A model generated the notes under the pieces. The model was not told the DNA's origin and did no database searches. It saw only the letters and a program-made list of their open reading frames with translations. A program made the translations under genes and the position numbers. DNA of 64,000 nucleotides from Cryptosporangium phraense (GTDB taxonomy: Bacteria; Actinomycetota; Actinomycetes; Mycobacteriales; Cryptosporangiaceae), in contig NZ_VIRS01000004.1 of assembly GCF_006912135.1 (NCBI RefSeq), positions 1 through 64,000 on the forward strand, read 5' to 3'. Position 1 is the stretch's first letter. The number at the start of each line of letters is the position of its first letter. Positions 36,249 to 40,515 of this stretch are shown in pieces.

Positions 36249-38000
36249 GTGCGTCCTCCCTCTGCCAGAACCCGCCGCGCGCTCGCCGCGCTCGCGCTCG
36301 TCGGGGCCCTGTTCCCGACCGCGCACCCGGCTGTGGCCGCCGGTACGGCCGCCACCAAGGTCTTCACGGCCGACGCCCAACCGACCTGGCAGACCAACGG
36401 CACGGTCTGGGCGGTCACGATCGTCGGCGGGGTGGTCTACATCGGCGGCAACTTCTCGGCCGTGCGTCCGCCCGGCGCGCCCGCGGGCACCCGCGAGGTG
36501 GCCCGGGACAACCTGGCCGCCTTCGACGCCCGCACCGGCAACCTGCTGCCGCTCTCGCACACGTTCGCGTCGCCGCGCTACGCGTTCAGCGTCTCGAAGC
36601 CGGACGTGTCCTGCGACGTCGACTGGGATTCCGAGTACTACAGCTGCGACACGATCTACCGGATCAAGGCCTCGCCGGACGGGTCGAAGATCTACGTCTC
36701 GGGCGACTTCAGCAGCGTCGACGGGCAGGCCAGGAGCAAGGTCGCGGCCTTCCCGACCGCGGGCGCGGCCAGCGCCAACCTGCCGCTCGACCGCACGTTC
36801 GCCCCGAGTGGCATCAACTCCCGGGTGCGGGCGTTGGCGGTCGGGGCGAACTCGGTCTACGTCGGCGGGATCTTCACCCAGGTGGGCGGTCAGTCCCGGG
36901 AGCGGCTCGCGGCGCTGAGCGCGCGCACCGGCGTCGTCCTGCCGTTCGCCGCCCGCGCGGACGGCGAGGTGCTCGCGCTGTCGCTGGCCGCGAACGGTCA
37001 CCGGCTGGTCGTCGGCGGTAACTACGACACGCTCAACGGCGTCGCCCAGCACGCGCTGGGGGCGGTCGACCCGGCCACCGGGGCGAGCACGGCCTGGGCC
37101 TGGCGGGGCGTCCCCCGGACGTCGTACATCACCGACATGGCGGTGGACCGCAACGCGGTCTACGTCTCGTCCAACGGCGAGGGCACCTGGGACGGCCGGG
37201 CCGCGGTGGATCCGCTGACCGGGGTCCTCAAGTGGTTCGACAGCTGCCTGGGGGCGACCTGGGCGCTGGCGCTGCACGGGGACCTGCTCTACAGCGGGTC
37301 GCACGCGCACAACTGCAACGACACCGCCGGGGGCTTCCCCGAGCAGGCGACCGACCTGCCCGAGCCGCGCTACTACCGGCTGATGGCGCAGACCACCCGC
37401 GGGAGCCGCACGACGATCCAGTACTGGTTCCCGTCGACCAACGGAGGTGACCCGAACGTTCCGGCGACCCGGTCTCCGTCGAAGCTCGGCCCGCGGGCGA
37501 TGGCCAGCGACGGGCGGTCGCTGTGGGTCGGTGGTCAGTTCACGACCGTCAACAACGTGCCGCAGCAGGGCCTGACCCGCTTCACGACGACCGCGACGTC
37601 CAAGGCCCCCTCGACGCCGCTCGCGCCGACGATCGCCAACAGCGGCGCCAACGCGGTGACCGTGACCTGGCGCGGAGTCGAGGACCTGGACGACCCGGTC
37701 GTGACGTACGAGATCTACCGCGGCTCGTCGATGGTGTACCGCGGGCGGGCGTCGGCCAAGCCGTGGGAGACGTCGAAGAGCTACCAGTTCACCGACCGGG
37801 GCCTGACCGCCGGGACGAGCGTGCAGTACCGGGTGCGGGCCGTCGACGGACGGAACACCGCCGGGGCGTTCTCGCCGATCGCCACCGCCACCGTCGGCCA
37901 GAGCGCCGAGCCGGCCGAGACCTGGCCGAACGACCCCTGGACCAACACCGGCTGGCAGCCCCGCCAGCGCGATTCGTGGTTCGACTGGGGCGGCTGGTAG
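36249..38000 (+). CDS. Secreted beta-propeller protein with FN3 domain
   Basis: A 583-residue exported protein, last gene of the polysaccharide operon. The signal peptide contains RTRRALAALALVGALF (Sec, or possibly Tat, given the RR) with cleavage after AVA near residue 30. Blade-like repeats follow (VVYIGGNFSAV, KIYVSGDFSSVDGQ, SVYVGGIFTQVGGQ, SLWVGGQFTTVNN), about six in all, forming a propeller up to ~450. A fibronectin type III domain (about 458-550) and a Trp-rich C-terminus ending DWGGW complete it. GTG at 36249 follows AGGAG. It probably sits in the extracellular matrix and binds polysaccharide. No catalytic motif seen. Confidence 0.8.
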   Translation: MRPPSARTRRALAALALVGALFPTAHPAVAAGTAATKVFTADAQPTWQTNGTVWAVTIVGGVVYIGGNFSAVRPPGAPAGTREVARDNLAAFDARTGNLLPLSHTFASPRYAFSVSKPDVSCDVDWDSEYYSCDTIYRIKASPDGSKIYVSGDFSSVDGQARSKVAAFPTAGAASANLPLDRTFAPSGINSRVRALAVGANSVYVGGIFTQVGGQSRERLAALSARTGVVLPFAARADGEVLALSLAANGHRLVVGGNYDTLNGVAQHALGAVDPATGASTAWAWRGVPRTSYITDMAVDRNAVYVSSNGEGTWDGRAAVDPLTGVLKWFDSCLGATWALALHGDLLYSGSHAHNCNDTAGGFPEQATDLPEPRYYRLMAQTTRGSRTTIQYWFPSTNGGDPNVPATRSPSKLGPRAMASDGRSLWVGGQFTTVNNVPQQGLTRFTTTATSKAPSTPLAPTIANSGANAVTVTWRGVEDLDDPVVTYEIYRGSSMVYRGRASAKPWETSKSYQFTDRGLTAGTSVQYRVRAVDGRNTAGAFSPIATATVGQSAEPAETWPNDPWTNTGWQPRQRDSWFDWGGW

Positions 38001-38885: not shown

Positions 38886-39371
38886 TCACAACCGGACCCA
38901 CGACGTCTGCAGCGGCTTGGCCTGCGGCGAGCGCAGGGGCCGGAGCACCAGGCTGAACAGCCCGATCGGGACGTCGAACTCGGCGTGACCGTCGTCGTCG
39001 GTGGTGACCGTGAACGTCGAGCCGGTACAGCGCACCTCGGCCGAGGCCCGCTGGGCCGGGAGCACCTCGAGGCTGACCCGGCGCCCGTCGCCGGAGTCGG
39101 TGACCCGGAGGTCGGCCCCGCCGTTCCGGTGGCCGAACCGCATCGTGCGGACGGTCGGGTCGGCGGCGGCCCGCCGGTCGTGGTCGAGCACCGAGTCGAA
39201 CATCAGGTCCGCGACGAGCGTGTCGACCGGACGGGCCTCGAATGCACGACGCGCTGCCGCGCGCACCGAATCCGGCACGACGTTCACGGGCCCTCCCTCG
39301 TCCACCCGGACGTCCCACGGGCGGGCGTGCTCCTCGGCGGAGTGGGCCCTGCGCAACGGTTCCGGTGACAC
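38886..39371 (-). CDS. Small uncharacterised protein downstream of an ECF sigma gene
   Basis: A 161-residue soluble protein with no signal peptide or membrane helix. The N-terminal half (VPDSVRAAARRAFEARP, LVADLMFDSVLD) is helical. The C-terminal half is beta-rich (VSLEVLPAQRASAEVRCTG, HAEFDVPIGLFSLVLRPL, ending TSWVRL) and has the look of a carboxypeptidase-regulatory-like sandwich. I recognise no named family. The GTG start at 39371 has a perfect AGGAGGT site overlapping the stop region of the sigma gene, so translation is coupled. Small proteins with this two-part layout accompany sigma factors in other actinobacteria; an anti-sigma or effector role is a guess. Confidence 0.7.
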   Translation of the reverse strand: MSPEPLRRAHSAEEHARPWDVRVDEGGPVNVVPDSVRAAARRAFEARPVDTLVADLMFDSVLDHDRRAAADPTVRTMRFGHRNGGADLRVTDSGDGRRVSLEVLPAQRASAEVRCTGSTFTVTTDDDGHAEFDVPIGLFSLVLRPLRSPQAKPLQTSWVRL

Positions 39372-39380
39372 TGCTACCTC

Positions 39381-40136
39381 CTAGGAAGAGCCGGCAGCAG
39401 CCGGATTGATACCTGCGTCCTCGACGATCGCCCGGAGTTTCTCCAGGCAGCGGCCTCGAGTGGGGCCGATGCTGCCGATCGGGATGTCGAGTGCGGCCGA
39501 GATCTCGTCGTAGCTCGGGGCCGGGTCGAGCAGCAGCAGCTGCAGCAGTTCGCGGCAGCGCGGGGTCAGCCGGCCGAACGCGGTCCGCATCTCGGCGTCG
39601 CGCTCGGCGGCCAGCAGCGCGGCGTCGGCCTCGGGGGTGGCGAGCCGGAGCCGGTCGGAGCCGGGGTCGAGCTCCTCGCCGGAGAGCACCGTGCGCTTGG
39701 ACCGGCCGAGCAGCCGCAGGCACTCGCGGCGGGCGGTGGTCGCGAGCCAGGCGCCGACCCGGCTGGGCTCGCTGAGCCGGTCGATGTTCTCCACCAGCCG
39801 GAGCCAGGTCGTCTGGCTGACGTCACCGGCGTCGCCGGGGCTCAGGCGGTGGTTGCGGGCCACGGTCCAGATCAGGCCACCGTAGGCGTCGACCAGCGCG
39901 TCCCAGGCCGCGTGGTCGCCCCCGGCCGCCGCGCCGACCAGCATCGCGGCCTCGTCGGGCGTCAGCGTGATGCGTCGGCCGGGGATGCGGACCGGGGGTG
40001 CGTCCTCGTCGGCGGCGGGTTCGTCCATCAGGTCGGTCAGGCCGGCGACCTCGTCCGGCTCGAGGATCGGCGGGAGCTCAGCGGGGTCGTCGTCCGGCAG
40101 CGTCGCCGGGCCGATCCGGGAGACCGGCCGGGTCAT
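39381..40136 (-). CDS. ECF-type sigma-70 family factor
   Basis: A 251-residue sigma factor. After an acidic N-terminal extension of ~75 residues, region 2 is present (HAAWDALVDAYGGLIWTVAR, DAGDVSQTTWLRLVENIDRL, GAWLATTARRECLRLLGRSKR). Region 4 follows (LTPRCRELLQLLLLDPAPSYDEISAALDIPIGSIGPTRGRCLEKLRAI). Region 3 is absent, as in ECF factors. The ATG at 40136 overlaps the stop of the region-2-only gene upstream (ATGA). No zinc-binding anti-sigma or membrane anti-sigma gene lies in the operon. It should direct RNA polymerase to a small regulon; target promoters are unknown. Confidence 0.9.
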   Translation of the reverse strand: MTRPVSRIGPATLPDDDPAELPPILEPDEVAGLTDLMDEPAADEDAPPVRIPGRRITLTPDEAAMLVGAAAGGDHAAWDALVDAYGGLIWTVARNHRLSPGDAGDVSQTTWLRLVENIDRLSEPSRVGAWLATTARRECLRLLGRSKRTVLSGEELDPGSDRLRLATPEADAALLAAERDAEMRTAFGRLTPRCRELLQLLLLDPAPSYDEISAALDIPIGSIGPTRGRCLEKLRAIVEDAGINPAAAGSS

Positions 40137-40507
40137 CGGGTGGGGCCGGCCGAGTCGGCCGGAGCGAAGCCCGGGGCGAGTCGGACGACGCCTCCGTCGG
40201 CGAACAGGGACTCGCGGCCGCGGCGCTGCTCGTCGCGGACCCAGGCGTCGACCTCGGAGCGGGCGGTGTGCAGGATCCACTCGTCGACCTGGGTGGTCGG
40301 CTGCTCGACCGGGTGGCGGGCCGGGTCCTTCGCGTTGGCCAGCGCGCGGACGGTGGGCCAGCGCTCGGCCATCCGGAGCCAGGTCAGCTGCGAGACGACC
40401 GCCGCTTCGGTCCGCTCCAGGCCGGCGGTGGTCGCGATGCCCCAGATGCTGTCCATGTGCTCGTCGACCAGCACGTCCCAGAGCTCGTCCCCCGACATAA
40501 GGGACAA
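40133..40507 (-). CDS. Stand-alone sigma region 2-like protein
   Basis: A 124-residue protein whose sequence parallels region 2 of the sigma factor encoded next: LWDVLVDEHMDSIWGIAT against AWDALVDAYGGLIWTVAR, VVSQLTWLRMAERWPTV against DVSQTTWLRLVENIDRL, and VDEWILHTARSEVDAWVRDE against GAWLATTARRECLRLLGRS. A ~20-residue insert separates the second and third blocks. There is no region 4 and the protein ends 40 residues later. ATG at 40507, first gene of a three-gene operon, ATGA-coupled to the sigma gene. It may hold core RNA polymerase or the -10 element without -35 contact, act as a decoy, or work with the full factor. It could instead be a decayed duplicate, although the frame is intact. 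Confidence 0.72.
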   Translation of the reverse strand: MSLMSGDELWDVLVDEHMDSIWGIATTAGLERTEAAVVSQLTWLRMAERWPTVRALANAKDPARHPVEQPTTQVDEWILHTARSEVDAWVRDEQRRGRESLFADGGVVRLAPGFAPADSAGPTR

Positions 40508-40515
40508 TATAGCTG

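Follow-up and report, generated by a model that had tools for sequence, protein, structure and literature searches.

A degenerate sigma2-only protein encoded in overlap with a complete ECF sigma factor of Cryptosporangium phraense, a putative sigma mimic

Sigma factors of the ECF type carry regions 2 and 4 in one protein. In Cryptosporangium phraense, a small gene located directly upstream of a complete ECF sigma gene appears to encode region 2 only, which raises the question of what a single sigma domain does beside a sigma factor that already possesses its own. The locus lies in a stretch of 64,000 nucleotides (contig NZ_VIRS01000004.1, positions 1 to 64,000, referred to as the window), and its features are collected in Table 1. 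An earlier, sequence-only reading of this DNA described the small protein as a stand-alone region 2 translated just before the sigma, and left it undecided between one half of a two-part sigma, a decoy and a regulator of the full factor.

Table 1. Coordinates of the sigma2-only module in the window and of the orphan relatives found in other genomes.
Feature	Position	Strand	Basis
161-aa P0003 protein, N-terminal helix and Ig/FnIII-like beta sandwich, candidate sigma regulator	38886..39371	-	position, model
Complete ECF sigma, 251 aa, ECF54-like, N-terminal extension of about 60 aa	39381..40136	-	Pfam, NCBIfam
ATGA, sigma2-only stop overlapping sigma start	40133..40136	-	5/5 family genomes
Sigma2-only protein of 121 aa with a degenerate region 2 and no region 4	40133..40498	-	BLASTP, profile-profile, predicted fold, conservation
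TATATT + 7 nt + ATG, candidate leaderless promoter with TATATT as -10 element	40499..40511	-	4 congeners
Orphan sigma2-only proteins	L211:3708-4010, L212:1633-2172 (G067); L213:247-951 (G178)	-	profile search

The open reading frame is located downstream of pth and contains 124 codons when read from a TTG at 40507, or 121 codons when read from an ATG at 40498. The latter is very likely the start of the protein, because the block TATATT-N7-ATGTCGG, which includes this ATG, is kept in all four congeners; the remaining part of the gap between pth and the small gene diverges, and the TTG is the less likely start. The 124-residue frame of the earlier reading is therefore a real ORF whose product very likely has 121 residues. 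Seen against the promoters of actinobacteria, the spacing of TATATT and ATG suggests a leaderless mRNA that begins at ATG 40498, with TATATT as its putative -10 element. The ATGA overlap with the sigma start, also noted earlier, is borne out, recurs throughout the family genomes and suggests that the translation of the two proteins is linked; their amounts, as the earlier reading implied, may be matched. A frameshift fusion of the two frames is less likely, as no slippery sequence common to the junctions was seen.

The small ORF is a real gene under purifying selection. It occupies the same place in all genomes of the genus that were examined (4/4), where the proteins are 75-85% identical to that of the window; in the other genus of the family, the corresponding position holds a gene whose product is about 30% identical. 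The gene order rplY-pth-small-sigma-161 aa is kept in 5/5 family genomes, so the pair is conserved, which the sequence-only reading had named as a check. Within the genus, the NG86 estimates for the small gene are dN 0.10-0.12 and dS 0.36-0.61, with dN/dS of about 0.18-0.32; the corresponding values for the neighbouring sigma are dN 0.05-0.13 and dS 0.48-0.57. Pairwise differences of the small gene at codon positions 1, 2 and 3 amount to 100, 53 and 226, and the core of the protein is near-invariant in the genus. Between genera, the small protein diverges faster than the sigma. The pseudogene-like rates that were to count against the earlier reading are not found, and a pseudogene is ruled out by the NG86 rates, the codon-position differences and the conservation in the genus.

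The relation of the small protein to its neighbour is detected by direct comparison. BLASTP aligns the two over 77 aa with 34% identity (E 3e-8), and the Smith-Waterman score of 100 lies above all of 2000 shuffles (maximum 68, mean 33.9, sd 6.1), which excludes chance similarity. The profile of four congeneric small proteins matches that of 23 sigma region-2 sequences with a profile-profile E of 4e-13. The general libraries respond differently: Pfam Sigma70_r2 (PF04542) gives no match to the 121-aa protein even at E 10 and its gathering score is not reached, and no NCBIfam model matches it. The protein has thus diverged beyond the reach of the general models. Its relatives in genomes G632 and G178 obtain only 14-15 bits with Sigma70_r2, for which the cut-off is 24. 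The comparison with Sigma70_r2 proposed earlier thus fails with the Pfam model and succeeds with region 2 of the subfamily. Taken literally, the Pfam miss is the outcome that was to count against the earlier reading; it is outweighed by the comparisons within the subfamily, together with the predicted fold and the conservation of the protein. Region 4 was looked for in the sigma2-only ORFs and was not found, so that none of them joins regions 2 and 4 in one protein as an ECF sigma does. The claimed similarity to region 2 of the neighbour, with no region 4, is therefore upheld.

The AlphaFold2 model of the small protein (29 aligned rows) has four helices and a mean pLDDT of 81.6. VIA-align matches it to ECF sigma2 domains with Z of about 9-10, mostly over 72-96 residues, and the Foldseek E-values, taken alone, are weak. 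The alignment used for the model contained sigma region-2 sequences, and the model agrees with the homology rather than being independent of it. Judged from sequence and model, the 121-aa protein is a homologue of the sigma2 domain by descent, with a predicted sigma2 fold.

Which of the sigma functions could be preserved was read by aligning 25 distinct sigma region-2 sequences together with six putative mimics. The acids of the DAxD motif are needed for core binding by ECF sigmas (PMC8999054). The second D of this motif is D in 24 of the 25 sigmas, and is replaced in the putative mimics, by V in the genus and by E in G004 and G632; in a separate alignment, the proteins of G379, G067 and G178 also have no D at this position. 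In sigmaH, it is the residues following W81, numbered here as W+n, that read the -10 element and melt it (PMC6411747). At W+7, 24/25 sigmas have R, where the putative mimics have S, R or D, and W+10, hydrophobic in the sigmas (L in 22/25), is D, G or A. The DNA-facing W+7, W+10 and W+11 are mostly lost in the aligned sigma2-only proteins, with the exceptions of R at W+7 in G004 and R at W+11 in G632. The residues that define the fold, W, L-R and E (W+8), are retained, and the key Q is present in the genus and in G632 and is E in G004. The length of the specificity loop is altered, and the genus has 15 additional residues in the loop between region 2.2 and the W. The degeneracy of core and promoter contact positions that characterizes PhyR is thereby found in these proteins, partly as conservative changes in G004 and G632. 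Such changes argue against a working sigma subunit, short of proof. Residual core binding is possible, because E at the second acid is a mild change (G004, G632) and the Q is kept (genus, G632).

The neighbouring 251-aa sigma is of the complete type. It matches Pfam Sigma70_r2 with E 2.9e-13 and Sigma70_r4 weakly, exceeds the cut-off of the NCBIfam sigma70-ECF model, and has an intact region 2 with the DAGD, Q and R-R motifs. In the genus, its acidic N-terminal extension of ~60 aa (39960-40136, minus strand) carries a conserved motif like LEPDEVAGLTDL; the extension is absent in the G004 and G632 sigmas.

The sigma is followed in 5/5 family genomes by the 161-aa protein (P0003), relatives of which come after many related sigmas. 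Its model has a mean pLDDT of 80.2, a weak CarboxypepD_reg match was obtained (E 0.029), and the libraries used name no function for it. A known anti-sigma fold was rejected for P0003, since the similarity of the model to Ig/FnIII-like sandwiches reaches no more than a middling Z (8 at most), and no known anti-sigma was identified at the locus. A protein of 150-160 aa often comes after members of the sigma subfamily, and elsewhere TPR-CHAT proteins do. Next to the window sigma, neither a CHAT nor a subtilase gene was seen; CHAT neighbours occur at related loci. PADLOC gave no match for the small protein, the sigma or the 161-aa protein. In genome G013, a single 310-aa ORF (L073:4999-5928, minus strand) consists of a degenerate ECF54-like sigma, with region 2 and region 4-like parts, and a P0003-like domain, and a TPR-CHAT protein comes next. 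This fusion hints that sigma-like and P0003-like proteins may touch. The module is adjoined by a gene (36249-38000, plus strand) that is kept in the genus and encodes a beta-propeller protein (DUF5122, Rax2-like) whose C-terminal domain is of the fibronectin type III kind.

The sigma2-only proteins were traced by a first profile scan for region 2 without region 4 among an initial set of related loci, and by wider searches comprising 2000 scans of genomes, in which samples overlapped and few candidates were scored for each genome; their distribution is at least as wide as found. Genome G632, which belongs to another family of the class, encodes a sigma2-only protein of 109 aa; its gene overlaps that of the sigma by 11 nt, and a P0003-like protein follows. 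The wider profile searches revealed the succession sigma2-only, ATGA, sigma, P0003-like in G379, from a third family, so that this overlapping order is present in two genera of the window's family, in G632 and in G379. Sigma2-only proteins with no adjacent sigma are encoded in G067 (two) and G178, from a fourth family of the class; one of these orphans has a C-terminal extension and one a Cys-containing N-terminal part. The other region-2 matches are joined to region 4, save fragments in two genomes, G053 and G160, and an antisense ECF of another type in G004. A different-type ECF sigma of G004 (L074:5655-6593, minus strand) has a Cys/His-containing C-terminal part and is convergent to an ECF54-like sigma. 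The fragment G053:C31:23777-24040 is an ECF54-like region 2 with intact DAxD and a stop before region 4, which may represent a truncated sigma gene; G053:C31 and G160:C331 were left out of the member count. Genome-contig scans with the small protein and with the genus alignment gave no match, nor did a plasmid search. In the tree, a short region with long branches, the G004 and G632 proteins group together (91/83, not starred). For the six sigma2-only proteins covered by the AU test, monophyly is neither established nor rejected (p 0.10), and one origin or several would fit.

The reading preferred here, with a probability of about one half, is that the small protein is a sigma2 mimic, with a region-2 domain akin to that of ECF54-like sigmas, which has kept the fold, has apparently lost the sigma function, and would regulate the co-translated sigma by contact. 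It is more likely a look-alike regulator than a working sigma factor, and is predicted not to be a working subunit of RNA polymerase. The mimic would take the surface normally bound by the sigma's own region 2. As the partner offering this surface, the 161-aa protein encoded next is the strongest candidate; its family goes together with this sigma subfamily, and one genome encodes a member joined to a sigma-like protein. In that case the mimic would titrate a regulator of the sigma, as PhyR titrates NepR. PhyR, from the alphaproteobacterial general stress response, is likewise a sigma-like domain with degenerate promoter and core contacts that acts by protein-protein binding (PMC8103513). It differs in that its full ECF-like domain is joined to a receiver and binds the anti-sigma NepR, whereas the small protein is a single sigma2 domain and a predicted mimic; no receiver domain was found in the 121-aa protein. 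In the main variant, the mimic would restrain the sigma by packing directly against it, with region 4 as one conceivable site. The G067 and G178 orphans have no adjoining sigma or P0003-like gene and must therefore act otherwise. A wider proposal can be offered only tentatively and is rather doubtful: that sigma2-only mimics derived from ECF54-like sigmas make up a recurrent family in actinobacteria, and that mimic, sigma and beta-sandwich protein form a three-gene switch in which the one degenerate sigma domain, through titration of a partner, frees or restrains the sigma co-translated with it.

Next after a mimic binding a region-2 partner ranks competition for core RNA polymerase, an unlikely explanation in which the region 2.2-like helix binds the beta' coiled coil and lowers the holoenzyme of its own or other sigmas. 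Within the genus, conservation is indeed highest in the region 2.2 helix (SQLTWLRMAERW), and the Q and W-L-R are retained in most sigma2-only members; however, every putative mimic is without one or both DAxD acids, the Q is E in G004, and ECFs that have no DAxD acids bind core only if phosphorylated (PMC8999054). An example of the latter is EcfP of ECF43, inactive until phosphorylated, which resembles the small protein in a region 2.2 with no complete DAED and in intrinsically poor core binding (PMC8999054). As a complete sigma that phosphorylation activates, EcfP differs from the small protein, which has no region 4.

The ORF might also serve as a translational leader, whose main effect is to tie synthesis of the sigma to a start further upstream, while the protein itself matters little. 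The start/stop overlap in all lineages of the module and the faster divergence between genera would fit such a role, but selection at the amino-acid level is near that of the sigma, the core hardly varies in the genus, and the orphan copies have no downstream sigma to couple, which makes this account improbable. A two-part sigma, with the small protein as the second region 2 of an unusual holoenzyme, is very improbable. Its precedent is SigO-RsoA of Bacillus subtilis, where a stand-alone sigma2-like protein is likewise made beside its sigma partner (PMC8103513), and the overlap of the two genes in the window agrees with it. In SigO-RsoA, however, the sigma2 and sigma4 functions are split and the partner is without its own region 2, whereas the partner here is a complete ECF whose intact region 2 leaves nothing to supply, and the small protein is altered where a sigma contacts core and DNA. 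Of the three roles left side by side by the earlier reading, the two-part sigma is accordingly disfavoured, and a decoy or regulator is favoured.

Stand-alone sigma2 proteins, such as RsoA, and sigma mimics, such as PhyR, are already known (PMC8103513). In the literature searched, of which the coverage is incomplete, no description was found of a degenerate sigma2 protein of ECF origin that is co-translated with a complete ECF sigma. The related loci, in which the sigmas are followed by the small protein with the weak CarboxypepD_reg match and by TPR-CHAT proteins, fit the context reported for ECF54 (PMC8999054). The window sigma differs from it in having no CHAT or subtilase neighbour and in being preceded by a sigma2-only gene. 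For ECF54, the review consulted gives only a proposed proteolytic control; a mimic would make the control of ECF54-like sigmas directly testable. If true, the co-translated sigma2 mimic would represent regulation by the duplication and degeneration of one sigma domain.
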